The notes under the pieces are model-generated. The model ran no database searches, had not been told where the DNA came from, and was given only the letters and a program-made list of their open reading frames with translations. 64,000 nucleotides of DNA from Chamaelirium japonicum. Lineage: Eukaryota; Streptophyta; Magnoliopsida; Liliales; Melanthiaceae. The position numbers were made by a program, and so were the translations under genes. Shown here piece after piece: positions 13,205-28,692 of this stretch. How positions within the stretch are numbered: position 1 is the stretch's first letter; each line of letters begins with the position of its first letter. The DNA is taken from the NCBI GenBank assembly GCA_947650365.1, contig OX393557.1:1550001-1614000 (forward strand), given 5' to 3'.

Positions 13205-15407
13205 AGTGCCCCCATATACTGACAAGGTTCGTTCGAAGTGAGTATGACGCTCAAACCTCCGACGGCGAGCTAAATGACTTTACACATCCTGGGCACTCAA
13301 GCTTATCTAGGTAAAGGCAAAGATATCCATATCTATATGGTTTGATCGATTGAAAAAATTATGTTTCTTATAGTGATCTATCCTATGTTTGGAGCCTTGA
13401 GGAGTGGCCTACCCAAAGGGGATTTACAACTGGATCATTGCAATATTACTACAACTATCAAAGCATAACTAAAGAGCTAGCATTATTATTTCTCAAACAA
13501 AAACACTAATATCAAATGGGGCCCGGGAAGCTAAACTCGAGTTCACTATTCAAATGGTGAACTCGAATAGAGAAGCTACCACGTGTCCTGAGAAAGTGTT
13601 CAATAGTCTTTTATATTTTGCTTTATGTTTTTTCAGTATTCAACCCTCTTAAATGCATATCCCCTCTTACTTGCAAATCTATCGTACTAGTCCTAAGCTA
13701 AAGAGAACCAAAATATATTGTACCTTCTTGAGCTCCTACTGATACTCTGAACTCTGCTATGGACCTAAAACTAGACCTACTCATGGAAAAGAGTAGCCCC
13801 CAAAAGAAGAATTATGATATTAGCCAATTTAATGGCTAGTGACATTCTAGAAGCCTTTAATAATATGAAACAACAAATCTTAATGAATTAAAATATATTT
13901 ATTAGTTCTAGTATGGTTAATGTTTGCAGAAAGATAACATACGTCTACAAGTAGTCTATGTTCTCATGCAATTCCTACTGTCACTAGGTTGTCTAACATA
14001 AAGTCTATTCAATATTCCACAATGTTAATGAACAATTAAATAAGACGCCCATCTTAATGTCATTAGGTTATCATGATCTACAATTCCATAGTCCAACATC
14101 AATATTTCATAGTTCTTAAGTAATTAAATAAAATATCTATCCTAATTTGAACCCCAGATTTTTTTTTCATCTTGCCCCCGGTCGGACATTACCATAGGGT
14201 CTTTTATTTCAATGTAAAGAGTCAACTCTCTTGTCGTGCATCCACCACCACCATGCACAAAATACCTAGATGATCATTAGGGGTTTTCCGTCTTTCACGT
14301 ATGGTGGAGCTCTACCGCCTAAATTGCTTTACTATGGGGACTTCAACTATCCCAGGACGGGATTGTTAGGCCAATTTCTACTTAAGGGCAACTCCAATTG
14401 GCTTTATCACAACACTTGCCTATGACCCCTAACTTACTTATCCTCGGCTGTGTACGTAGGGTGGTTCACGGGACTTGCATGCATGAGCTCCCTACCCTCT
14501 AACTAGGTAGATTATCCATTAACCATTTATACATATATATCCTAAAGTTGCAAAAAGAGTTCATTCGATAATTACTGGTTTCCAACAGTTTACCCCTACT
14601 TCCGCACCACTCTATCAACCCACAATAATACTATGTATTGCTCTTAAAGCGATTCGGCCCGCACTCTTTGAAAACCAGTGTACTAGGATTGCCACACTCC
14701 CTTTAGGAGGGTGGGCCCTAATAATTATTATTTATTAATTTAGTTTATAGAAAAGCCTAATTAAGGTATCCAAGCAATCAATAATAATAATTTCCATTAT
14801 TAAATTTTTTAGGCATGCATCGCCGGACTCACGACTTCGCATGCAAGGCAGGGTCCACTTGACCACATGCGATGAACCCGACGGGATCCACATACAGTGT
14901 CATGGACACTAACCATTAGTTATTCTCATTTCCCACTATTAAAGACCACATAAATATAGATGTCACCAGATCGACGGTCGCACAAACTCCTGCTACTGCT
15001 CCTGATTTGCCTTTGCTGGATCGTCTTGGTCGCGAACTGGCAAGTTACACAAATCCATATCATGGGTCTGTCGATTTAGGCAAAAGCATTTATGATGAGG
15101 GTTCATGTCAAGTTCGGTGTTAGATTCGCCAATTAACCAAGAGGCCCTCGGCATATGTGCGGGTATGAGTCGATATACACAATTATAACCTAAAGAGCCT
15201 CTCGAGCCTAGACACGGATTGGCAATGACTATCATGCATTGTCTGGTCGGATCTTCGAATTGGTTGAGTTAATTGTCTAGGCACCATCAGATTTCGGTCC
15301 ATTAGCATGCAAAATGACACATTTTATGTTACCCGTCTTTTATAGTCAGCATAACCGATGCTAAGGGTCCTATTATGGTCCAATTATACTAACCCGACTA
15401 GGTGACC
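13205..15407. other. Intergenic, unassigned repetitive-looking DNA
   Basis: I found no reliable coding sequence. The style of 13900-14900 (CCGCC, gcccccgg and AT-rich alternation) resembles untranslated parts of old LTR elements, but I cannot prove it. At 15340-15370 a GCATAACCGATGCTAAG stretch resembles subterminal repeats of CACTA elements; the match is too short to call. Confidence 0.3.
13537..13566. repeat. 30-bp perfect-stem inverted repeat
   Basis: Arms TCGAGTTCAC and GTGAACTCGA (10 bp, perfect) surround a 10-nt loop. A CACGTG G-box core follows at about 13580. No gene is adjacent. Confidence 0.7.
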
Positions 15408-15412
15408 GATAT

Positions 15413-16240
15413 TGTAGGGGAAAATCTTCGTGCCGACCCGAAGACTTCGCCGCACCAGTCAATTGAGGTTCGAGTCGAAGATAGTTGTTCGATCTGTTGA
15501 TTGGAGTTGCTGCTGTCGATATGCAAACGGAGAGATGTAATCGAAGAGTGGACACGAGATGTGATCTCGGAGTTCAGCCGAAGCCTACGTCTCCGTGCTA
15601 TAGGGAGCAACCCGAATTCACTAACTCTTTTCTCGAAGTGATCTCGACAGACCGAGTATCACTGAAGCCTCTCTGATCTCTTCAAAGACAAGAAGAAGAA
15701 GATCGAGGAGAGGTGAAGGATAGGAAGCTAGAAAATTCCAAAGCTCTGGTTTTTGAAAATCAGATCTCAGAACTGGAAATCCGATCATTTACATTTGAGG
15801 GGTCTGCTATTGATAAAAAAATTCTGGAGTAGATGGCGGTTTCTGGTTGCTTCTGGAAGAAACTCCAGGCAGGGCTGGTGGGTCCCGTGGATGTCTCCTG
15901 GGTATTCCACAGGCAGGGCCGGTGGGTCCCGCTGTAGATTTCGGGGGCCCACCAGGCAGGGCCGGTGGGTCCCGCTATAGTCTTCGGGGGCCCACCAGGC
16001 AGGGCCGGTGGGTCCCGCTGTAGTCTTCGGGGGCCCACCAGGCAGGGCCGGTGGGTCCCGCTGTAATCTTCGAGGGCCCACCAGGCAGGGCCGGTGGGTC
16101 CCGCTGTTGTCTTCGGGGACCCACCAGGTAGGGCCGGTGGGTCCCGCTGTTGTCTTTGGGGGCCCACCAGGCAAGGCCGGTGGGTCCCGCGGTAATCTTT
16201 GGGGGCCCACCAGGCAGGGCCGGTGGGTCCCGCGGTAATT
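15413..16240 (-). repeat. Gypsy 3' LTR (inner end truncated)
   Basis: It is collinear with the right LTR until the minisatellite, then passes directly into the 118-bp array. The last ~35 bp present in the right LTR (28147-28184) and the polypurine tract are missing here, so the inner boundary is deleted or rearranged. Confidence 0.8.
15867..16240. repeat. 43-bp minisatellite in 3' LTR, ~9 units
   Basis: Units recur every 43 bp (AGGCAGGGCCGG at 15911, 15954, 15997, 16040, 16083, 16126, 16169 and 16212). Each holds GGGCCCACC...GGTGGGTCCC inverted arms. The spacer alternates between CTGTAGTCTTCGG, CTGTTGTCTTCGG and CGGTAATCTTTGG types. Confidence 0.95.
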
Positions 16241-17340
16241 TGACCGATCGGTTGAATTTGACCGATCGAGGTTTATGGGATCGGGCAAAAGGCCAAGTCT
16301 GACCGATCGGTTGAATTTGACCGATCGATTGAATTTGACCGATCGACCAAGTCTGACCGATCGGTTAAGTTCAACCGGTCGAGGTTCATGGGATCGGGCA
16401 AAAGGCCAAGTTTTTTGCCCGATCCAGTAGAAAATCGACCGATCGGTTGAATTTGACCGATCGGTCAAGTCTGACCGATCGGTTAATTTCAACCGATCGA
16501 GGTTGGTGGGATCGGGCAAAAGGCTAAGTTTTTTGCCCGATCCAGTAGAAAATTGACCGATCGGTTGAATTTGGACCAATCTGTCAAGCCTGAATGATCG
16601 GTTAAGTTCAACCGGTCGAGGTTGGTGGGATCGGATAAAAGGCCAAGTTTTTTGCCCGATCCAGTAGAAAATCGATCGATCGGTTGAATTTGACCGATCG
16701 GTCAAGTCTGACCGATCGGTTAAGTTCAACCGATCGAGGTTGATGGGATCGGGTAAAAGGCCAAGTTTTTTGCCCGATCCAGTAGAAAATCGACCGATCG
16801 GTTGAATTTTAACCGATCGGTCAAGTCTGACCGATCAGTTAAGTTCAACCGATCGAGGTTGGTGGGATCGGGCAAAAGGTCAAGTTTTTTGCCCGATCCA
16901 GTAGAAAATCGACCGATCGGTTGAATTTGATCGATCGGTCAAGTCTGACAGATCGGTTAAGTTCAACCGGTCGAGGTTGGTCGGATCGGGCAAAAGGCCA
17001 AGTTTTTTGCCCGATCCAGTAGAAAATCGACCGATCGGTTGAATTTGACCGATCGGTTAAGTCTGACCAATCGATTAATTTCAACCGGTCGATGTTGGTG
17101 GGATCGGGCAAAAGGCCAAGTTTTTTGCCCGATCTAGTAGAAAATCGACCGATCGGTTGAATTTGACCGATCGGTCAAGTCTGACCGATCGGTTAATTTC
17201 AACCGGTCGAGGTTGATGGGATCGGGCAAAAGGCCAAGTTTTTTGCCCGATCCAGTAGAAAATCGACCGATCGGTTGAATTTGACCGATCGATCAAGTCT
17301 GACCGATCGATTAAGTTCAACCGATCGGTTAAGTTTTGAA
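16238..17340. repeat. 118-bp tandem array with hairpins and CCGATCGG palindromes
   Basis: About eight units repeat every 118-119 bp; the marker TTTTTTGCCC falls at 16411, 16529, 16648, 16766, 16885, 17003, 17121 and 17239. A partial unit starts the array. Each unit contains several CCGATCGG palindromes and one hairpin with 13-bp arms (GGATCGGGCAAAA / TTTTGCCCGATCC) and a 9-nt loop. The array lies between the pol-antisense gene and the 3' LTR, that is in the 3' untranslated part of the sense transcript. Tandem arrays in this place are known from Tat/Ogre-type elements. Confidence 0.95.
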
Positions 17341-17679
17341 CCTGTCGAGCTGATACGGCAGAAGAGCCTATTTTCTGCACGATCTTTTGGTAAATTACCC
17401 GATCGTCTGCCTGTCGATCGGGTAAAGTCTTCGGGCGGCGATCGAGTTTGATTTTTATGCTTGAATCTGTGGTCCGTCTAGATCGGTGAGTCTTTTGAAC
17501 CGGCGGTTCGGTTGGACCGGCGGTCTGCTTGGACCAGCGGTTCAACGCTTCGTCTGGTCCCGACGGTTCGCCTGGTTTTGCGCTTGCTACGGATTGATGC
17601 CACGTGTTCTTGCAAAAACACAAGATTTGACTTGGTGACGGCACGTGTCTTCTCGATCTGCGCGCTAGTTTCCTCTGGG

Positions 17680-17686
17680 TATATAT
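17680..17686 (+). promoter_or_regulatory. TATA box of the antisense gene
   Basis: GTATATATGC lies about 105 bp upstream of the ATG at 17791. The segment between is pyrimidine-rich, as expected for a plant 5' leader. It is on the strand opposite to gag-pol. Confidence 0.5.
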
Positions 17687-17790
17687 GCTCTCTCCGGATA
17701 CATTTTTGCCTCGCGCTTCTAGAATTTTTTCAAACTCCAGAACCTTTTGCTCTCGAATTTCTGTTCTTTGCAATCTCTCGATCGGTTGAA

Positions 17791-19738
17791 ATGGCTTCTT
17801 CCGGTAGCTTGAAGAAGATCAACATCGTGCCCTTGAAGAGGAAGGGGAAGGAGAGGGCTGAAGTGTCGCCCGTGCAGCAGAAAGGCAGGGGAAAAGGCAA
17901 GGCTGAACTTGGCATTCTTGGCAAGAGGCATCAGGGGGTGGGGTTTGCCTCTGCACCATCAAGGCCAGAGCAAATCCCCAAGGCGAGCTTCGTGTTGGGC
18001 CCTCTGATGTCGCTGATAGAGGAGCCTGCTTATGAGTATAATATTGGTGGAAAGCTCACAGACGTGAAGAGGGCAAAGTGGCACACACTGCTTGCTTGCT
18101 TCATAGAGGGGAAGGTTTGTCCATCTCTTCCTGGAGTTCAGTCCACCTTTGGCATCGACAAGCGGACGGTCTTCACAAATTTTGCCAGCAAGGAGCAAGT
18201 AATGGGGACTGTGGTCACCATAGGCCAGCTGAATTGCGGACTGTGTCTTCCACTGCTACCCTTCGTTGCGCGGTTGCTGAATACCTCAGGTCTTTGCCCC
18301 GGGCAGATCTCTGGGAATGCTTGGAGGATCATCTACGCCTTCTGCCACGTAGAATCTGATTTCCAGGAGGAGCTTAGGGCCTGCTACTCCAGTATCCCCG
18401 AGGGTGAGGAAGCAAGGATCGAATTGGGATACTTCTTCTATCACTACAAATGGGCATCGAGGAAAGATAGCCCGTTCTTCAACTTGACAGGTGTCTCTGC
18501 CCTGCGCCCGATCGTCGACACCGTCGCTTCCGACAAACTCTACACCAACTGGCCGATCTCGGTTTTCGATGCATGGACTCCTCTTTCGGTGCCTGAGACC
18601 CCTAGGAATCCGGTACACAGAGAGGTCAAAATGTACTGCACGGGAGGAGCCTTTGCTTGGATGTCCGATCGGGTTGGGGCCCTGGACAATTTGTTCTTGG
18701 AGTTGACGTGCGGCACCCGATCATGGAAGCAGTTTTCGAACTGCTCGGTCCGTCACGGCAATGCCAATCTGCTCCACCAACTGCGAGTTTGTTACGAGGA
18801 TAACGAGGTCTTGTACTCCGATTATGAGGAGGATCCTCAATCGGGCAAGATCATCAGAAGAGTCCGGGCCGAGAAGAAGGCCTATGGAGCAAGGCATCAT
18901 CTACCAACTGAGGAGAGGCTCGTGATCAATCGCAGGGGCCAGGTGAAGAAGAGGAAAGTCTTTATCGAGGAGAAAGAAGAAGAGAAGGAGAAAGATGAAG
19001 AAGAAGAAGAAGAAGAAGAAGAAGAAGATGAAAATGAAGATGGAGGTGATGACGACGATGACGATGGGAATGACGATGGTGACGACGATGATGACGGAGG
19101 AAACAGGGGTGACGGTGGAGGTGAGGAGGTCCCTCCCACCCCTACTAGAGGTGATGAAGCAAAAGGGGGTGGTGAGGAAGAAATTCCTCCCACCCCCACT
19201 GGTGGCGATGAAGGAGAAGGGGGTGGTGAGGAAGAAATTCCTCCCACCCCCACTGGTGGACAAGAGGATTCATCACCCATCCCCATCGATGAGGCTAGGG
19301 CCCGTCAAATGGAAGCTGTGATGGACACCGTGGGTGATGTCCAGAAGGTACAGCCCACGTACCACTTTGAGGAGTTGAAGCGTCCGACTTGTATCCGGAT
19401 CAGGTTCTCGGGGAGTGATGGGGTTGCAAGCAACCCCACGCCCCTCGACCAAATATCTCCGAGCATCCTTCGCCTCGAGGGTGCTTCGACGAGTGGTGGG
19501 ATGGAGGTTGAGCAACCTACCCCCACCACTCGTCGATCAGCTACGTAAGTGGCTGAGGAGACGGCCGCACTGATGGCCAGGCTCGAGCAGCCTGGCAGAC
19601 AACAAGAAGAAGGGGAGATCACTCCTCCATGAGGTGTTCCTTCTCCAATTCACCTAGAGAGAGGAAGCCGAGTGGATGCGGGGACTCCCCAATCTCCGCT
19701 AGAGATAACCCCCCTCAAGGAGAGGTCGACCCCCAGGG
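17791..19738 (+). pseudogene. Gypsy antisense gene, exon 1 (putative gypsy-type transposon protein)
   Basis: This plus-strand gene lies inside the minus-strand Gypsy element. The start is ATGG at 17791 (MASSGSLKK) with a good context; an earlier in-frame ATG at 17512 lies upstream of the TATA box. Residues 1-50 are basic and lysine-rich. Residues ~60-350 form a globular region (PLLPFVARLLNTSGLCP, NAWRIIYAFCHVE) resembling plant 'putative gypsy type transposon' proteins (PF04195-like; inference). An acidic E/D tract follows at 18967-19110, then three 19-residue EEEIPPTPTGG-type repeats. The frame is interrupted by TAA at 19546 and TGA at 19630 but stays coherent to a donor at 19738|GTAAGA. With exons 2-3 it totals 2607 nt, an exact multiple of three. 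The role in the element is unknown. Confidence 0.75.
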
Positions 19739-19875
19739 GTAAGAGCTCCGAACGGGGAAAGGGTAAAGCCCTCGAGTTGATGCCACAAGTACTCCCTTGC
19801 TGACCTCCCTCCTTGATTGCATTGCCTTCGAAGTTTGAAATATCCTAACTCTTTGAACTTTTGTGTCGATTGCAG

Positions 19876-20610
19876 ATGCTCCTGCTGGCACGGCTCAGTT
19901 TTTGAAGGACTTGGGTGAGGTTGACATCAACCACCCAACTCCTGTCATCCGGAAGCTTTGCAATCTTCCAGATGCTATGCTCGAAGAGGCCTACAATAGG
20001 CTTGAAGTAGTGGTAAGTGCATCAGCTTGACTTCATTTTTTGATTTGTATATTCATAAATGTTTCTAACTCTTTTTGTTTGTTTCCAGAATTCAGCTGTT
20101 CTGAAGTTCGCTACAAGGCTCTTCAAGAGGGTCGGAGAGCGGAAGGCTTCATCTGAAGTTTCTCGCTTGACGGCTGAACTTGAAGCTGCCAACGAAGAGA
20201 ATGCAAAGCTGAGGGAAGTTTTATCTTCCAAGAAGGAGTCTTTGAAGGCCAAGATCGAGGCTCTTCGCAAGGAGAAGCTTGAGAGCAAGGGCTGGCATGA
20301 TGGTTATGTTGCTCGAGGCCACGAGCTCGAAGAATTGAAGAATCGATTCTTCAGAATAGAGACTCTGGCTCACGACCGATCTGTAAAGCTGACGGAATTG
20401 AAGAGCCAGCTTGCTGCTAGGGATGCTGCTCTTACTGCTAAGGCTGCCAAGGAAGAAACTTTAACGAAGGAGCTTGAGGAGACTCGTGCTGAATGCGAAA
20501 TTTTTAGGACGTCGGCTGAGAAGGCAGTAGAAGCCCTTAGGGCTCATGCTAGTGGTGTCCAATCTTCAAAGGCATCCGCGGCGGGCAAGGCTCGTGGTGG
20601 ATCCGAATGA
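19876..20610 (+). pseudogene. Gypsy antisense gene, exons 2 and 3 (coiled-coil C-terminus)
   Basis: Exon 2 is 19876-20012, after a TTGCAG acceptor and ending at a GTAAGT donor. Exon 3 is 20089-20610, after a TTTCCAG acceptor. Introns are 137 and 76 bp, and phases fit (one base carried from exon 1; phase 0 between exons 2 and 3). Exon 2 encodes LKDLGEVDINHPTP. Exon 3 encodes a long charged heptad-like stretch (SRLTAELEAANEENAKLREV and onward) predicted as coiled coil, ending ARGGSE. These two exons have no stops. Plausible roles are oligomerisation or RNA/chromatin binding; none is shown. Confidence 0.7.
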
Positions 20611-20729
20611 GAGAGGTCACGCGCACCAAGTGTGGCAAAGCCCTGATGTATTCTACTTCTTCTTTGTTGTTGTCTTTGTAAGCATTTCTTATATAGAAGG
20701 CTCACTCCTATAACCAGAAACTTTTTGAT

Positions 20730-20735
20730 AATAAA
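20730..20735 (+). terminator. Poly(A) signal of the antisense gene
   Basis: AATAAA lies 120 bp after the TGA at 20608-20610, within a T-rich 3' region, on the antisense gene's strand. Confidence 0.5.
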
Positions 20736-20828
20736 GATATCTCTTTGGTGCTCGAAACTGCATGTCTCTTGTATTGATTATCTTTGAATGTTGTATTCTG
20801 GATGGTGTTGGAATGTTCGAATATATAA

Positions 20829-21150
20829 ACACTTGAATGTAAGGGGTCGAGCCGTAACTCGATCACCCAAACTTGTTGAGTAACTTGAAAATTGAAGATT
20901 GTGTTGTAGCACAACTTGAAATCGTTAACATTTGAATGTGAGGGGTTGAGTCGCAACTCAAGCATCCAAACCTGTTAGACGATATTGAAATTGAAGATCA
21001 TTAACATTTGTAAGTAAGGGGTAGTGTCGCAACACAAGCTCCCAAACATTTTAAATTGACCTAGTGACTTGAAGGTTGTTTTGTATCATAACCCGAAACC
21101 GTTTAACATCTGTCTGTAAGGGGTTGAGTCGCAACTCAAGCACCCAAACT
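20829..21150. repeat. Four hairpin repeats with compensatory changes
   Basis: A ~100-bp motif (AATGTAAGGGGTTGAGTCGC and following) occurs four times with AAGGGG or its variant at 20841, 20940, 21016 and 21118. Each has a short hairpin: TCGAG/CTCGA at 20847-20862, TTGAG/CTCAA at 20946-20961 and 21124-21139, TAGTG/CACAA at 21022-21037. It lies between the converging 3' ends of the antisense gene and of pol. Confidence 0.85.
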
Positions 21151-21278
21151 TGTTAAACGACCATGTAATTTGAATGCAGATAATTTTGAACTTGAATGTA
21201 GATAACTTGGAACTTATTCATAGCTTGAGTTGACAAGAGAACTTTTGAAAATGATCTTTATTCATCATGGAATTTACA

Positions 21279-22688
21279 TCATGGATAGTACATTTTGAGA
21301 TATCTAGCATTCCAAACTCGTGGTAGTCTGTCTCCTTCTGGCGAAATCAGCCGGTAAGACCCTTTGCCTCCTACTGATTCGACGATATAGGGTCCTTCCC
21401 AGTTGGGAGCTAGTTTTCCACTGCTATGCTCCTTCGTGTTGTAGAAGACTGCTCTGAGGACCAGGCTGCTAATTGGGAACTGTCGTTTGTTGACCTTTTG
21501 ATCGTAGGCTCGTTTGATCTTCTGTTGGTACTTGGCCACACGAAGGGATGCTTGGTCTCGTAGTTCTTCAGAGAAATCTAGATCATTGACTCAAAGCTCC
21601 TCATTAATGCCTTCTTCAACTGCCCTGGTCTTCAAGGTACTTGATATGTTTTCTATAGGGAGCACTACTTTGGACCCATAGGTTAGGCAGAAGGGTGAGA
21701 ACCTAGTTGATCTTCTCGGAGTTGTTCGATAGCCCCATAAAACTTATGGTAGGACTTGTTCCCACAATCCTTTCTTGTCATTGAGTTTCTTCTTGAGTAT
21801 ACCCAAAATAGCTCTGTTTGAGGCTTCAGCTTGGCCATTGCATTGAGGGTACCTTGGAGTTGAGGAGAAAAGCTTGATTCTGTTGTTCAGGCAGAACTCC
21901 CGAAACTTGTCAGAGTCGAATTGGGCTCCATTGTCAGCAACTAAGACTTATGGCGTGCCAAACCTCGAGAAAATGTTATGCCTGATGAACTTGATGACTT
22001 CGTCGTCAGTCTCTCGAAAGAGTGGCACTGCTTCAACCCACTTGGTGAAGTAATCTGTAGCCAGCAACAGATACTTCTTCTTGCTTGGAGTTGGTGGGAA
22101 GGGACCTAAGAAGTCCAACCCCCATTGATGGAAAGGCCAAGGGCTCGTCAGCTGATGGAGCTTATCTGTTGGGAGATGGATAGCCCGAGCATGTCTTTGG
22201 TAAGGCTCGCATCTTTGAATCACTTGGTGAGCGTCTCTTGCCATTGTGGGCCAGTAGTAACCTTGTAACTTTGTCTTGGCTTCAAGTGATCTCCCTCCCG
22301 AGTGATTCCCGTAGGCTTCGGAGTGGATGTCAACCAGAATTGCCTTTGCTTGCTCAGGGCCAATGCATTTGAGCATCATCCCATTATGAGACTTGAAATA
22401 TAGATCTTCACCTTGAAGGTTATAGCACATAAGCTTTCTTTGTAGTCTTCGGGCTTGATTTGGATCTTCGGGCACCTTGCCATGTTTGAAGAAGTCGAAT
22501 ATTGGCTGTCTCCAATCATCGAGCTCATTTGTGGTGGTAAGGTTCAAGGCTAATTGTTCTCCACCCCCAGATCTTTCTGTAACGGCGACGATCTGTTGCT
22601 CGGGGGTGGTCTTTGGCGATTCTTGATAATCGATTTGTATTTGTCTTCCTCCGAGCGAATCTCCAAGAACCGAGGCAGTGTTGGCCAA
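21279..22688 (-). pseudogene. Gypsy integrase region
   Basis: Minus strand. A zinc region (NHSGGRS, GYYWPTMARDA, RCEPYQRHA) has lost one of its two cysteines, now Tyr. The integrase core follows with Asp in QWGLDFLGPF, Asp in VADNGAQF and the acidic partner in GQAEASNR. The C-terminal part reads LAPNWEGPYIVESVGGKGSY, the usual Gypsy integrase tail, ending LKMYYP at 21279. In-frame stops lie at 21948-21950 (TAA), near 21740 (TAA) and near 21590 (TGA). The product would insert cDNA into chromosomes; this copy cannot. Confidence 0.88.
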
Positions 22689-22760
22689 GGCATCTGCTTC
22701 TCGATTTTATACCCCTGGGATTTGAATGAACTCAATGTTAGTAAAATGTTACTGAAGGCG

Positions 22761-23384
22761 TCACACTAGGGCCAAGAAGTTCTGTATCCTTCCTTCTCGC
22801 GCAGTATACTCCCTGTTGATCTGCCTCACAATCAGCTGAGAGTCGCTGTAGACGATGAGTTGATCCACCCCCAGGGATTTAGCAATTTCAAGTCCAGAGA
22901 GGAGTGATTCGTACTCGGCTTCATTGTTGGTGGCATTGAATCCAAGGAGAACGGCCTTATGAAGTTGATCAAGTTCGGGGGATACCAAGACTATCCCAAT
23001 TCCTGAACCGATCGTGCTTGAAGCTCCATCGGTGTAAAGCTTCCATTGAACTGGTATAGTGGTAGGAGCCTTGAGACTTGGATCGATCTTTGTAGTCGTA
23101 TTGGATGGAAGTTCGTCTTCGTCTTCAAGGCGCATGTCGACATCATCCTCCCAAGTTATGGGGTCTTTAACTGGAAAGTCGGCTAGAAAATTAGCAATTG
23201 CTTGCCCCTTGATTGAAGTGCGAGATTCGAATTGGATCCCCAGAGCACTCATCTCGATTACCCATTTGGTCATTCGACCAGCTCGACCCGCCTTGTCGAT
23301 GATATCTTTGAGTGGATGTTCTGAGATGACTGTGATCTGATGGGAAACAAAATAAGGTTGGAGACGACGTGATGTAGTGAGCAA
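22761..23384 (-). pseudogene. Gypsy RNase H, second (plant Tat-type) domain
   Basis: The stretch holds the end of the RT-linked RNase H region (ISEHPLKDII, GRMTKWVIEMS) and then a second RNase H domain: WKLYTDGASS, NNEAEYESLLSGL and VYSDSQLIVRQI carry the D-E-D catalytic residues. An additional RNase H after the RT-linked one is a known Tat-group feature. TGA at 22761 and two TAA near 22700-22750 separate it from integrase in the same frame. Confidence 0.85.
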
Positions 23385-23570
23385 GGCCAGTATGACCTTC
23401 TCCGTTTTTGAGTAGCGAGTCTCAGCAGGGAGAAGTGTATGGCTACTGTAGTAGACCGGATGTTTGACGCCTCCTCTTTTGCTGACTAGAACCGTACTGA
23501 TTGCTTGATCGGTGATGGCGAGATAGAGCCAGAGATCTTCTTTTGGAAGTGGAGCTGTTAGGATGGGAGC

Positions 23571-24692
23571 TCACACGAGATATCTCTTGACGTCTTGAAA
23601 GGCTTGTTCGCAAGTTGGACTCCAGCCAGACGTATCCGCCTTTCGTAGCTTGTCAAAGAGCGGCTTGCACTTGTCAGAAGATTTCGAGATGAACCGATTG
23701 AGGGCAGCAAGTCTTCCAGTGAGGCGTTGCACTTCCTTTCGATTGGTTGGTGACGGTATGTCGAGGATTGCTCGAATTTGATCAGGATTGGCTTCGATGC
23801 CCCTCCTGGTCACAAGGTGGCCTAGGAATTTGCCCGATTGAACTCCGAAAGCGCATTTGGCTGGATTGAGCTTCATACGATATTTTTGTAGGACTTGAAA
23901 GGTTTCCGCCAGATCGGATAAATGGCTCTTTCGGGTAGAGCTCTTGGTAAGGAGATCGTCGACGTAGACTTTGACGTTGCGCCCGATCTGGTCTTCGAAC
24001 ATCTTCGTGACTAGCCGTTGATAGGTAGACCCAGCATTTTTGAGGCCGAAAGGCATTATGTTGTAGCAATAGAGACCTCGGCTAGTCACAAAGCAAGTCT
24101 TCTCTTGATCGTCCGGATGAAGAGGAATCTGATTGTACCCAGAGTATCCATCCATGAAAGATAATAGCTCGTGGCCAGCAGTGGCGTCGACGAGCCTATC
24201 TATCCTTGGCATGGGGAATAGATCTTTGGGACAAGCCTTGTTGAGGTTGGTGAAGTTGATGCACACTCTGACCTTCCCGTTCTTCTTTGGGACAGCAACT
24301 ATATTGGAGATCCAAGTAGGGTACTCTACTTCACGGATGAAGCCTGCTGCGAGTAGCTTACTGATCTCTTCTTGAACTGCAACTTGTAGTTCTGGTCGGA
24401 TTGTGCGTGGCTTTTGCTTAACAGGTTTCACTTCTCCTTTGATTGTGAGCCGATGGCAGGCGTCATCTGGATTGATCCCAAGCATATCTTCGAAGCACCA
24501 AGCGAAGATGTCGATATTGGATTGGAGGAAGGATACCATGTCTCGCGCTTCTGCGTCACTGAGACCGGTACCGATGAACGTTTCTTGAGTGAGATCTCCA
24601 CTGCCGATATTGATTGGAATGATTTCTTCGATTGAAGGTGAAGCCTCCCACTCGATTGGTGGAGGCTCGGTCAGCGAGATCTCTTTTGGTTG
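23571..24692 (-). pseudogene. Gypsy reverse transcriptase
   Basis: The RT domain is almost complete and in one frame: PRTIRPELQVAVQEEI, VAVPKKNGKVRVCI, ELLSFMDGYSGYNQ, FGLKNAGSTYQRLV, then YVDD at 23966-23955, and KFLGHLVTRRGIE. A TAG at 24693-24695 precedes it and a TGA at 23571-23573 follows. The usual YVDDMLVKS reads YVDDLLTKS. It would copy element RNA into cDNA in particles. Confidence 0.9.
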
Positions 24693-25515
24693 CTATTTGG
24701 AAGAAGGGCCAGCTTCATCTCGTGGTTGCTTTGGAGGAGCAATATTTATCTTACGATCTGTCTTTGCCGCAGCCGCTTCGCAAGATCGTCCGGCCTGTTG
24801 ATCTCCTCGGATGCACACAATGCCCTCTCCTATTGCAAATTTGAGGAGTTGATGGTAGAAGGAGGAGATGGCATTGATTTGATATAGAAATGGCCGACCA
24901 AGGATGACGTTGTAGTTGGACGTTCCCTCGACGATTGCGAACCTTACCAAGACTCGAGTCTCTCGGATAAGGTAGAGGGTGAATCTTGATTCACCCATTA
25001 TGATGCTTTGCTCACCATTGAAGCCCGTGATCACCGTTGGGACGACGTCAAGGCTTGAATATTTATGTCCCAGACGTTTGAAGCAGTTCCGTGTCGATGA
25101 GGATTCGATTGACGGTGCTTCCGTCGATGAGGAGCTTCAAGACCAGGGGGTCTCGATGTGGAGTATGGACTCCTTGAAGATCAGTGTCATTGAAAACGAT
25201 GGAGGGCCAAACCAAACCCTTGATAGGCTTCTCGATCCAGGTATCCTTCTTGTTCGCCGTAGAGCGAATGTGGAAGATGCGTCGAACTTGCCGATCAACT
25301 TCCTTCCCAGTCAGCGCTTGGTTGTGCAATATCCCGTGAATGCCAAACGCATTGGCATTCACAGTGATAGGTGATCGGTTGGAGGAGATTTGATGGACCC
25401 AGCAAGCTTCTTTCCCCTTTGCAGAGGTTCGGCGTTGATCTTGTCCGCCCTTGACGAACTCTTGAAGGTGGCCTTCATCAGTAGGTCTTCGAGATGAAAT
25501 CTCAACCGATAGCAC
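24693..25515 (-). pseudogene. Gypsy protease, broken at its active site
   Basis: The upstream part (25515-25063) reads PLVLKLLIDGSTVNRILIDT. The frame is lost exactly after LIDT, where family members have Gly-Ser-Ser. The downstream half continues in another frame (25034-24693) with VILGRPFLYQINA and VCIRGDQQA, both typical of plant Gypsy aspartic proteases. A small deletion at about 25085 removed part of the active-site loop. Another frameshift near 25490 separates this part from gag. Confidence 0.8.
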
Positions 25516-27131
25516 CGATCGGTGGAATGGCCGTGACTTCGGTGGAAGTCGTAATAGACCGTTTTGTCAGCCGTGACTTTAGTGTCAGGCTGAAGCGGAT
25601 TAGGTCTCCTGAGGAATTCCTCATGTTGAATGTGGTCGAGGATTTGCTCGATCGATAGATTCCACTTGGTGAAAGTGGTCTTTGATGGAGATCGACGTCC
25701 GCCGTTTCTTGATCGCTTGTGAGTAGGGGGAACTACTGCCTCAGCGTTGTGAGTTTTGGCAGCATACTTCGGAGCTTCCCTCTCGGCGGGTCACCTCTTC
25801 GTCTCTCGCCCTTTTCGGGCAACTTGATCGTCTTCAACTTTAATTTCTCTCTGGATTCGATCAAACATTGAACCCAGAGAAGGAGGAGGATTGCGAATGA
25901 AGTCGTTGTAGATATGCAGGTGGAAGCGGAGTGCATTCTGGAAAGCCAACATGATAGCTTCATCATCCAAATGCCTCCCCGAGAGGGTAGCGTGCTCGTT
26001 GCGGAATCTCCTTGTGAAGCTTCGAAGACTCTCATCAGCGCCCATCCTCAGTCGATAGAGGGAGTTGAGTTTCTTCTCAGGCTTCAAGTTCAGCTGGTAG
26101 TGCTGCACGAAGTGATTGGCCAAGACATCGAACTGGGTGATGGATCCAGATCAGAGGTTATGGTACCAATCGAGGGATGGCTCATCGAGGCTCCCGGCGA
26201 AGGTGCGACAGAGCACGTTGTTTTCTTCTTCGTGCGACGTCAGAGCTTGCTTGAAGGCGAGAATATGGAGAGTTGGATCTCCCTTGATGCAATTAAATCT
26301 GGGGAGAGTGCGAGTTCTCCATCCCCTTGGAAATGTCGACTCGAACAGGCTCCGATGGAGAGGTCCGGCGGAGGAGTATCCCTCCCTACGACCATGCCAT
26401 CGACCTGGATGCAGGTCAAGAGGTAAGATCGCAAGGTCTTGCTCGGGCATTTGAGTGTTTGCCGGTTGGAGTCGGTGACGAAGGTCCGATTCGATTCCCC
26501 GTTGAAGCGGAATGGACGGAGAAACTCTACTCTTTGAAGGAGCCCCTTTTATCTGGTGTTTCCTTGGTATGTCGGGCTTTGAAGTTGTCCTCCTGTCACA
26601 GTTGCGACCGGAAGAGGATTGGGAGGATTCATCGTTGATGCGATCCCAAACACTCTGCTTCCACGGGGTAGCAGAGGGAGTTGGGTCACGATGAATCCTC
26701 TCGAGGGCAGCAGTGCCCATTGATCTCCGTGGCTCGGAGTGAATCGATTGTCGTGGTAGATCGACCCTTTCGTTAGTCGAGGGGATAGGAAGAGCAATCC
26801 CAGCCTCGGAGGCTACCTTCTTGAGGGCATCCCTCTCAGCGGTGAGGGCGGCGTTCTGCTTGGCTAGTTGTAGTAATTGAAAATCAACCGCCAATATTTG
26901 GTATGTGGATAGCGGGTCTTCAACAGGAGTAGGGGCAGTTAGCCCTGTTGATTGTCGAGGGGGTTGAGGGATCGGTCGATCAACCGATCTCCCGCTACCT
27001 GAACGAGCACCCATATCGGGGACAGCAAGGGGCTGTCCAAAGTTGAGCCTTTGACTCATTGAACGAGTCTCAGGACGAGCTTGATGTGTGTTACTTCCTT
27101 CTGGTTGACCCTGATGCTTCGTCCTCGCCAT
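25516..27131 (-). pseudogene. Gypsy gag
   Basis: The ATG at 27131 (MARTKHQGQPEG) lies just inside the 5' LTR. The N-terminal third is low-complexity with an ALTAERDAL heptad stretch. The retrotransposon-gag core spans about 26330-25850 (FKQALTSHEEENNVLCRTFA, LDWYHNL, YRLRMGADESLRSFTRRF). Stops lie at 26151-26153 and 25791-25793 (both TGA). The C-terminal YYDFHRSHGHSTDRC region is where a zinc-like motif normally sits. It would be the capsid protein; this copy is non-functional. Confidence 0.85.
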
Positions 27132-27266
27132 TTAGAGAGCGAAGGGTGCAACGAGAGTGCCGACGTCCTAATGGTTGTCTGCTCAACCGAAGGGGCTAGG
27201 AAGTCTGATCGGTTGTCTGCTCAACCGATCTGACTTGTTGTAGGGCGAACTTGGCTTCTCGTTATA

Positions 27267-27283
27267 TCCCACAGACGGTGCCA
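27267..27283 (-). other. Gypsy primer-binding site
   Basis: Minus reads TGGCACCGTCTGTGGGA three nucleotides inside the 5' LTR. It resembles the TGGCGCCGTCTGTGGGA type seen in plant Gypsy elements. I do not assign the tRNA. Confidence 0.5.
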
Positions 27284-27286
27284 ACC

Positions 27287-28184
27287 TGTGGGGGAAAATC
27301 TTCGTGCCGACCCGAAGACTTCGCCGCACCAGTCAATTGAGGTTCGAGTCGAAGATAGTTGTTCGATCTGTTGATTGGAGTTGTTGCTGTCGATATACAA
27401 ACGGAGAGATGTAATCGAAGAGTTGACGCGAGATGTAATCTCGGAGTTCAGCCGAAGCCTACGTCTCCGTGCTATAGGGAGCAACTCGAATTCACTAACT
27501 CTTTTCTCGAAGTGATCTCGATAGACCGAGTATCACTGAAGCCTCTCCGATCTCTTCAAAGACAAGAAGAAGAAGATCGAGGAGAGGTGAAGGATAGGAA
27601 GCTAGAAAATTCCAGAGCTCTGGTTTTTGAAAATCAGATCTCAGAACTGGAAATCCGATCATTTACATTTGAGGGGTCTGCTATTTATAGAAAATTTTTG
27701 AAGTAGATGGCGGTTTCTGGTTGCTTCTGGAAGAAACTCCAGGCAGGGCTGGTGGGTCCCGTGGCTATCTCCTGGGGATTCCACAGGCAGGGCCGGTGCG
27801 TCCCGCTATAGTCTTCGGGGGCCCACCAGGCAGGGCTGGTGGGTCCTGCTGTAGTCTTCGGGGGCCCACCAGGCAGGGCCGGTGGGTCCCGTTGTTGTCT
27901 TCGGGGGCCCATCAGGCAGGGCCGGTGGGTCCTGCTGTTGTCTTCGGGGGCCCACCAGGCTGGGTCGGTGGGTCCCGCTGTTGTCTTCGAGGGCCCACCA
28001 GGCAGGGCCGGTGGATCCCGCGGTTGTCTTTGGGGGCCCACTAGGCAGGGCCGGTGGGTCTCGCAGTAATCTTTGGGGGCCACCAGGCAGGGCCGGTGGG
28101 TCCCGCGGTAATCTTTGGGGGCCCACCAGGCGGGGCCGGTGGGTCCCGTTGTTTGCAGACTTCTTACCAAAATTTGCACCCACA
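27287..28184 (-). repeat. Gypsy 5' LTR
   Basis: An 898-bp LTR with TGTGGG...CCCACA ends. Its outer ~450 bp match the left LTR with a few percent difference. The minisatellite block differs in unit number and order. Confidence 0.92.
27741..28160. repeat. 43-bp minisatellite in 5' LTR, ~10 units
   Basis: Same unit as in the left LTR, with AGGC starts at 27741, 27785, 27828, 27871, 27914, 27957, 28000, 28043, 28085 and 28128. One unit is 42 bp. Confidence 0.95.
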
Positions 28185-28189
28185 GATAC

Positions 28190-28692
28190 GTCCTACTACA
28201 AGCATACTTTCATGCTTTAAAGAGTCTTCAGTACCACGACCAAAGTAAGGGTAAGTCGGCTACGATCGAGCCCAAGCAAGGGTAAGTCGGCTACAATCGA
28301 GCACCACAAGTTTCAAGGGACGCGACACATCACAGGAGTGGATCAAGCACCGAGGTTAGAAACAACTATCTACTTGAGGGTTGTCAGCACCAAGTCTGAA
28401 AGATAGGGTAGAGGTCCACTATGGTTGGGCGGCACTTGGCCGACAACTGTTCGATCGTCGAGCCTCAAGCTGACGACAATATCACACGAAGGGGCGCTAC
28501 TACGATGAATCGTAGTCTAGCATCGGTGGTTGGGTGGTTGGTATGTAACAGGCTACCTCGTTGTCGGCCAAAAGCCAACAACCACCACGGTAAGGAGAGG
28601 AACTATGCGGGTCGATGCGACTGGCGATTGGGTGTGGGGTGATGCTTGGCCAAGTATGGTCAAAGCCACTTACTGCCTGACCACCTATAGTC
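28190..28692. other. Intergenic between two LTR elements
   Basis: No gene seen. A direct repeat AAGGGTAAGTCGGCTAC(G/A)ATCGAGC occurs twice at about 28247-28301. The text is repetitive in style but unassigned. Confidence 0.4.

Follow-up and report, generated by a model that had tools for sequence, protein, structure and literature searches.

Antisense reading frames are already known in Tat/Retand retrotransposons, and their role is a stated open question. In the accessible text of the survey by Vicient 2025 (PMC11963269), 97% of Retand clusters have an antisense TRP28 ORF, the Smc-like ones are counted separately and the tandem arrays are highly variable; the word intron is absent from that text and splicing appears only among its references. 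The parts available of Neumann 2019 (PMC6317226) place Transposase_28 in 23% of Retand elements and mention a sense intron in Ogre, while the corresponding portion of PMC10606437 has PF04195 in circular DNA and leaves introns unmentioned. For Grande, antisense transcription and a nuclear product are described in the accessible sections of the review by Vicient and Casacuberta 2020 (PMC7264820), which also wishes for a search for antisense spliced transcripts. Searches of the open-access literature turned up no description of antisense introns, and none of a conserved hairpin array, for Retand elements.

The locus described here lies in a window of 64 kb (the whole stretch of DNA that was analysed) of a 1.52-Gb genome, from which all family copies also come. 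Like the Retand TRP28 ORFs, it has a PF04195 antisense frame between pol and the 3' LTR with tandem arrays in the same region, and coiled-coil or Smc-like antisense ORFs nearby also occur in that survey (PMC11963269, accessible text). It differs from the elements as presented there in that a single three-exon gene would join ORFs treated as separate, and in that the hairpin core of its array is conserved between subfamilies of one genome, whereas the arrays there are highly variable. Maize Grande gene23, as told in the part of PMC7264820 at hand, likewise lies antisense, has a promoter of its own and gives a nuclear product. Ogre, another Tat-clade element, likewise uses host splicing, but its intron is on the gag-pol strand and is spliced in a subset of transcripts (PMC6317226, in part), whereas here two introns are predicted on the opposite strand. 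What is new is therefore not the antisense frame but its three-exon structure with introns, which is well supported by the comparison of copies.

The host element

The window element is a minus-strand Retand-type (Tat) Gypsy retrotransposon extending from ca. 15413 to 28112 or beyond, with the following landmarks.

15413..16239, minus strand: 3' LTR (the low-coordinate LTR), containing a 43-bp minisatellite and aligning with 27287-28112
21948..22688, minus strand: integrase (part; PF17921, 5.1e-8; PF00665, 2.2e-5)
22761..23384, minus strand: RNase H region (PF13456, 8.9e-11; PF00075, 1.7e-6)
23571..24539, minus strand: reverse transcriptase (RT; PF00078, 7.4e-30)
26151..27131, minus strand: long frame at the gag position
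27287..28112, minus strand: 5' LTR, portion aligning with the 3' LTR in the LTR-LTR alignment

An antisense ORF with Transposase_28 is located between pol and the 3' LTR, according to both profile and RT strand checks, and the region from pol to the 3' LTR measures ca. 5.7 kb (21948 down to 16239), to be compared with 2.9-6.6 kb for Retand elements in the accessible part of PMC11963269. The first-pass annotation, which had assigned the frame to the Tat/Retand kind of antisense ORF and had placed it on the plus strand from an ATG at 17791 within a minus-strand gag-pol element, was correct on both points, RT, RNase H and integrase all being encoded on the minus strand. An additional RNase H (aRH) was looked for between RNase H and integrase; PF13456 and PF00075 both match the same stretch, 22761-23384, between RT and integrase. 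The frame at the gag position has no match in Pfam, and an Rfam scan of 15300-28400 returned none either.

The two LTRs agree at 94.7% over 827 positions and at 97% over a 300-nt part. The minisatellite occurs in both, at 15865-16237 (8.7 copies) and 27739-28152 (9.6 copies). When 16230-16250 is compared with 28139-28330, the tandem array described below is seen to follow the minisatellite of the 3' LTR without a gap; the other LTR runs on into different sequence, and for this reason the edge of the 3' LTR seems to have been lost in the window copy. The copy of the element also looks dead, because the RT frame is interrupted by stops (24695, 23573, 22763, 22751, 22709 and 21950) that fall between or beside the domains of the pol region (21948-25034). 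Between the end of the antisense gene and pol, a 68-nt repeat occurs four times, at intervals, at 20826-21170 (66-84% similarity among the copies); it comes with small inverted repeats such as TTGAGTCGCAACTCAA, and additional copies are present at several other loci.

Structure of the antisense gene

A search for copies gave at least 40 places (41 matches; 40 scored of 2069 first-look candidates), including the window, with which the 39 others were aligned; counts at a site refer to the copies having letters there. This comparison indicates that the minus-strand element very probably contains a plus-strand gene of three exons, as follows.

17680..17685, plus strand: antisense-gene TATA box (TATATA), kept in 30 of 33 copies
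17791..19788, plus strand: exon 1 as drawn from the copy comparison, with a basic start, the Transposase_28 core, a KKRKV-like patch, an acidic tract and PPTPTGG repeats
18211..18363, plus strand: stretch matching the PF04195 Transposase_28 profile, residues 141-191
19545..19550, plus strand: GTAAGT, donor-like, a near-private mutation (GT in 2 of 31 rows with letters, the window and L009)
19739..19744, plus strand: GTAAGA, donor-like (GT in 36 of 36 copies; absent in L054)
19789..19875, plus strand: intron 1 in its most likely form (donor GT and acceptor AG each in 36 of 37 copies)
19876..20012, plus strand: exon 2 (shared variants by codon position 8, 5 and 17)
20013..20088, plus strand: intron 2 (donor GT in 37 of 37 copies, acceptor AG in 34 of 37)
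20089..20646, plus strand: exon 3, with the coiled coil and the family stop at 20644-20646 (34 of 34 copies)
20730..20735, plus strand: AATAAA poly(A) signal, in 29 of 34 copies

The start ATG at 17791 is present in 33 of 33 copies, and the TATA box and poly(A) signal proposed by the first-pass annotation are both kept in most copies. A branch-point-like CTRAY occurs near the end of intron 1 in 34 of 37 copies and near the end of intron 2 in 31 of 37. Its A lies 27 nt before the end of intron 1 in 32 copies, and 20 nt before that of intron 2 in 27. The claim of three exons with two GT-AG introns is thus upheld for the family, and splicing of the three exons into one protein is well supported, as judged from the aligned copies. 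The end at 20610 given in that annotation is replaced by the family stop, which is found in every copy having the site.

The 3' end of exon 1 most likely falls at 19788 since the stretch 19739-19788 shows coding constraint: its equivalent is 51 nt long in 34 copies and encodes one peptide with few changes, six of the seven shared variants being at third positions. As the main donor, 19739 is less likely than 19789 given these 51 coding-constrained nucleotides and the occurrence of a member, L054, that is devoid of the 19739 site. The GT at 19739 would then be either a donor-like piece of coding sequence or an alternative donor that keeps the frame, and it is possible that both donors are used. 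The most conspicuous donor-like motif, GTAAGT at 19545, was rejected: it is out of phase with the acceptor at 19876, and among 31 rows its GT is restricted to the window and L009, which points to a near-private mutation rather than to a family donor.

A search of the genome with PF04195 gave at least 137 places over the cut-off of 26.2 bits among 150 scored of 5979 candidates, the best of the places listed reaching 34.9 bits; a control search matched 0 of 14 control genomes. Eight diverged members were picked from these places for long open frames and for spread, a choice that favours intact copies. Where it could be aligned, their exon 1 matches that of the window at 64-74%; exons 2 and 3 come after it in the expected order in all eight, with single splice sites lost in three. 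Read by eye, the 19789-type donor, the 19739-type donor and the first acceptor are each retained in seven of the eight, and donor 2 and acceptor 2 in all eight. L054 has a second tandem copy of the exon 2-3 part. RT was detected at the expected distance in 8 of 10 elements (two only partial), in all eight on the strand opposite the gene, and was not found within the fetched 3 kb in the other two. The comparison with PF04195 that the first-pass annotation had called for gives a match in 14 of 14 aligned members, with a best E of 1.9e-7; for the window itself it amounts to 21.1 bits (E 3.7e-4), which is below the curated cut-off of 26.2.

In the window, the gene is a pseudogene. With the splice sites of the family, in-frame stops are found at 19546 and 19630 in exon 1 and at 20608 in exon 3, and the stretch before donor 19789 differs in length by one base from that of 34 other copies, a difference in 19739-19788 that is common to the window and its sister copy L009. 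The intact open spliced gene first proposed for the window is therefore discarded. Its spliced length was said to be a multiple of three, and this is arithmetically so with donor 19739 and the end then assigned (1948+137+522=2607 nt), but that frame holds the stops at 19546 and 19630. When 168 GT/AG pairs were tried for intron 1 of the window, 33 left the frame open, none of them using donor 19545, 19739 or 19789. Across the head of exon 1, 13 copies are open among 47 loci searched. Upstream, the exon 3 frame of the window stays open as far as an ATG at 20059, which falls within intron 2.

The protein encoded by intact relatives would be of ca. 900 residues and would comprise a basic start, the Transposase_28 core, a KKRKV-like patch, an acidic tract with PPTPTGG repeats and a coiled coil. 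These features had been read from the window alone in the first-pass annotation and are indeed present: 42 D/E are found in the 78 residues 393-470, the strongest hydrophobic period of exon 3 is exactly 3.5 (reached by none of 2000 shuffles), and its residues 18-150 are without proline. In the alignment, clusters of basic residues are conserved close to the start and at residues 386-388; they resemble nuclear localisation signals. Comparison with solved structures gave three matches for the exon 1 head, none of them a credible relative (the best, at E 0.053, being an antibody chain), and no match for exon 3 at E 0.01; among viral contigs, 80 pattern matches were obtained, none of which is a relative.

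Selection on the antisense protein

Variants were divided into shared ones, with the second allele in at least four copies and mostly arisen during element replication, and private ones, found in one copy and mostly post-insertion; codon-position counts were computed with exon 1 ending at 19738. In the head of exon 1, shared variants number 65, 50 and 218 at codon positions 1, 2 and 3 (218 of 333 at the third) against 73, 74 and 49 for private variants (49 of 196 at the third). The same distribution of shared variants was observed for the acidic part (21, 18 and 48), the tail of exon 1 (33, 31 and 69) and exon 3 (41, 27 and 108), with a modest bias in the short exon 2 (8, 5 and 17; p 0.02), while private variants display a third-position excess in no exon. 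No such bias is seen for shared variants of the introns (13, 10, 14 and 7, 4, 2) or of the flanks (18, 21, 26 and 18, 17, 19). In all three exons the bias sits in the phase required by the splice model and, when the gene is scanned in steps of 100 nt, the third-position phase is ahead in every step of 17850-19749 and 20050-20649. Among indels found in at least three copies, 14 in the exons are multiples of three and 6 are not (2 in the exon 1 head and 4 in the acidic tract), compared with 1 and 7 in the introns; once exon indels of every frequency are counted, the split is 55 to 50, which is what a set made up mostly of decayed copies should give.

In the exon 1 head, compared over 91 pairs from 14 open copies, median pairwise dN/dS is 0.150, 0.115 and 0.112 at dS of 0.3-0.5, 0.5-0.8 and 0.8-3, respectively, and 0.51 at dS below 0.15 (2 pairs). 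For exon 3, where 31 open copies yield 465 pairs and 462 of these fall in the bins, the medians are 0.214, 0.174 and 0.167 in the same bins and 0.53 below dS 0.15. With the same method, dN/dS for the RT of seven elements is 0.05-0.17 where dS exceeds 0.15, and 0.34 in the one closer pair. Picking open copies lowers dN/dS somewhat, an effect of which the shared-variant test is free. Neutral evolution of the frame, which the first-pass annotation had named as an outcome that would speak against its reading, is thus not what is seen, dN/dS being ca. 0.11-0.17 between distant copies. Taken at the codon level, these patterns indicate that the antisense protein is under strong constraint, somewhat weaker than that on RT, and that the gene is kept by purifying selection in the relatives of the window copy, with the codon constraint switching at the introns.

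A hairpin array next to the promoter

The DNA between the 3' LTR edge and a point ca. 350 bp before the TATA box is occupied by a tandem array.

16241..17327, unstranded: tandem array made of a 118-bp unit repeated 9.2 times, the units being long hairpins with CCGATCGG palindromes (repeat and fold analysis)

Its CCGATCGG palindromes are often 18 bp apart. In the upstream DNA of the family copies (500-638 bases), at least three CGATCG are present in 31 of 32, L045 having none. Arrays occur in all eight diverged members, with 8-23 CCGATCGG each, and TATATA precedes the gene in seven of these. CCGNNCGG is found 16-32 times per array in nine of nine arrays, against shuffled means below 1, while neither CCGNCGG nor CCGNNNCGG occurs in any of the nine. 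The exact 16-base palindrome TTGACCGATCGGTCAA is found at 21,216 places in the genome versus none for the reversed control.

One unit from each of 11 loci (the window and L072-L081), out of 73 units, aligns over 119 columns; the fold obtained has one stem of 33 bp and further, smaller ones. Pairing holds for 95.7% of 484 cells, a percentage raised by the derivation of the structure from the same alignment. Changes on both sides affect 8 of 44 pairs, compared with 3.6 in shuffles (none of 500 reaching 8) and 0-2 in slid controls. Fold z values range from -8.5 to -10.5 for three units, one of them tested on both strands, and in 70 of 73 units the more stable fold is that of the plus strand, on which the antisense gene lies; the units share ancestry, however, and are not independent. 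At L080 and L081, units of 159 and 172 bp with the same palindrome adjoin 118-bp units, so that unit length shifts while the palindrome stays; neither the gene nor pol was matched within the 3.0 and 2.8 kb fetched at these two loci.

By these comparisons, the array is a series of predicted hairpins with compensatory changes, the core of which is conserved across subfamilies of one genome. It may act as DNA, or as RNA, or be only a mutational product. One explanation of the array, considered unlikely, is that it serves as an enhancer for host WRKY factors, TTGACCGATCGGTCAA being made of two inverted W-box-like TTGACC motifs. TTGAC[CT] on either strand does occur 15-59 times per array against shuffle means of 1.0-1.9 in nine of nine arrays, but this enrichment follows from the repeated stem itself, and the compensatory changes link neighbouring palindromes as in a hairpin.

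Proposed mechanism and alternative explanations

Taken together, the window most probably contains, in decayed form, a genuine second gene belonging to a Retand-type retrotransposon; in working relatives this gene would be spliced. In these relatives, the antisense gene would be transcribed from its own TATA promoter near 17680, on the strand opposite gag-pol, and the host would splice two short introns to give one protein. On gag-pol-sense RNA the same introns would read CT-AC and escape splicing; they would survive each round of replication because reverse transcription copies the gag-pol-sense RNA. Patterns of spliced retrocopies gave three matches for the exon 2-3 junction (five in the reversed control), none gene-related, and three for the exon 1-2 junction (none in the control), all of them unspliced copies; this failure to find spliced retrocopies agrees, weakly, with opposite-strand replication. 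Points against this explanation are that the window copy is broken, that 6 of 20 exon indels found in at least three copies are not multiples of three, that the bias of exon 2 taken alone is modest and that exon 1 has two candidate donors.

Transcription, splicing, nuclear location and self-association of the antisense product are inferred from sequence features. A tentative assignment, which we hold with less than even confidence, is that of an accessory protein of the nucleus that would associate with itself, bind nucleic acid and either control the nucleic acid of its own element or assist in assembling it, possibly by way of the hairpin/palindrome array next to the promoter of the gene. 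More speculatively, and on balance improbable in this precise form, the coiled-coil Transposase_28 protein would bind the array and so control its own promoter and the fate of element RNA or DNA. In HTLV-1, HBZ is spliced and its product has a coiled coil. The circuit proposed here would be HBZ-like and would have arisen independently in plants, its introns persisting by opposite-strand replication. HBZ is likewise the antisense gene of a retroelement with a nuclear product (PMC11963269, accessible text), but it is driven from the 3' LTR (PMC7264820, in part) whereas the TATA box here is inside the element, and the likeness does not come from sequence comparison.

That the antisense RNA rather than a protein matters, by pairing with gag-pol RNA to form dsRNA and siRNA that tune the element, was put forward in the accessible part of the 2020 review (PMC7264820), and the hairpin array could also feed siRNA; this has a small probability as the whole explanation, since protein-level selection in three exons would be left unexplained, although both could hold.

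Slightly less probable still are two or more separate unspliced antisense ORFs, one with Transposase_28 and one encoding a Smc-like coiled coil, in line with the separate Smc and TRP28 antisense ORFs of Vicient 2025 (PMC11963269, accessible text) and with the exon 3 frame of the window extending back to ATG 20059. This sits poorly with exon 2, which is too short to stand alone yet is coding-biased, with a constraint that stops at the splice sites, with the conserved branch points and GT/AG, and with the constrained coding phase of exon 1 up to 19788. Finally, a chance frame devoid of function, to which the broken window copy would lend itself, has next to no probability and is refuted for the family by the third-position share of shared as opposed to private variants in the exon 1 head (218/333 versus 49/196) and by a dN/dS near 0.11.

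Significance

The preferred reading, a spliced antisense gene kept in working relatives, joins in a three-exon model ORFs that have been counted separately and names the junctions to be sought in RNA data. The hairpin array becomes a concrete candidate target for the antisense protein. If the proposed circuit is true, Retand elements would contain both a self-contained antisense regulator with introns and the target of that regulator.
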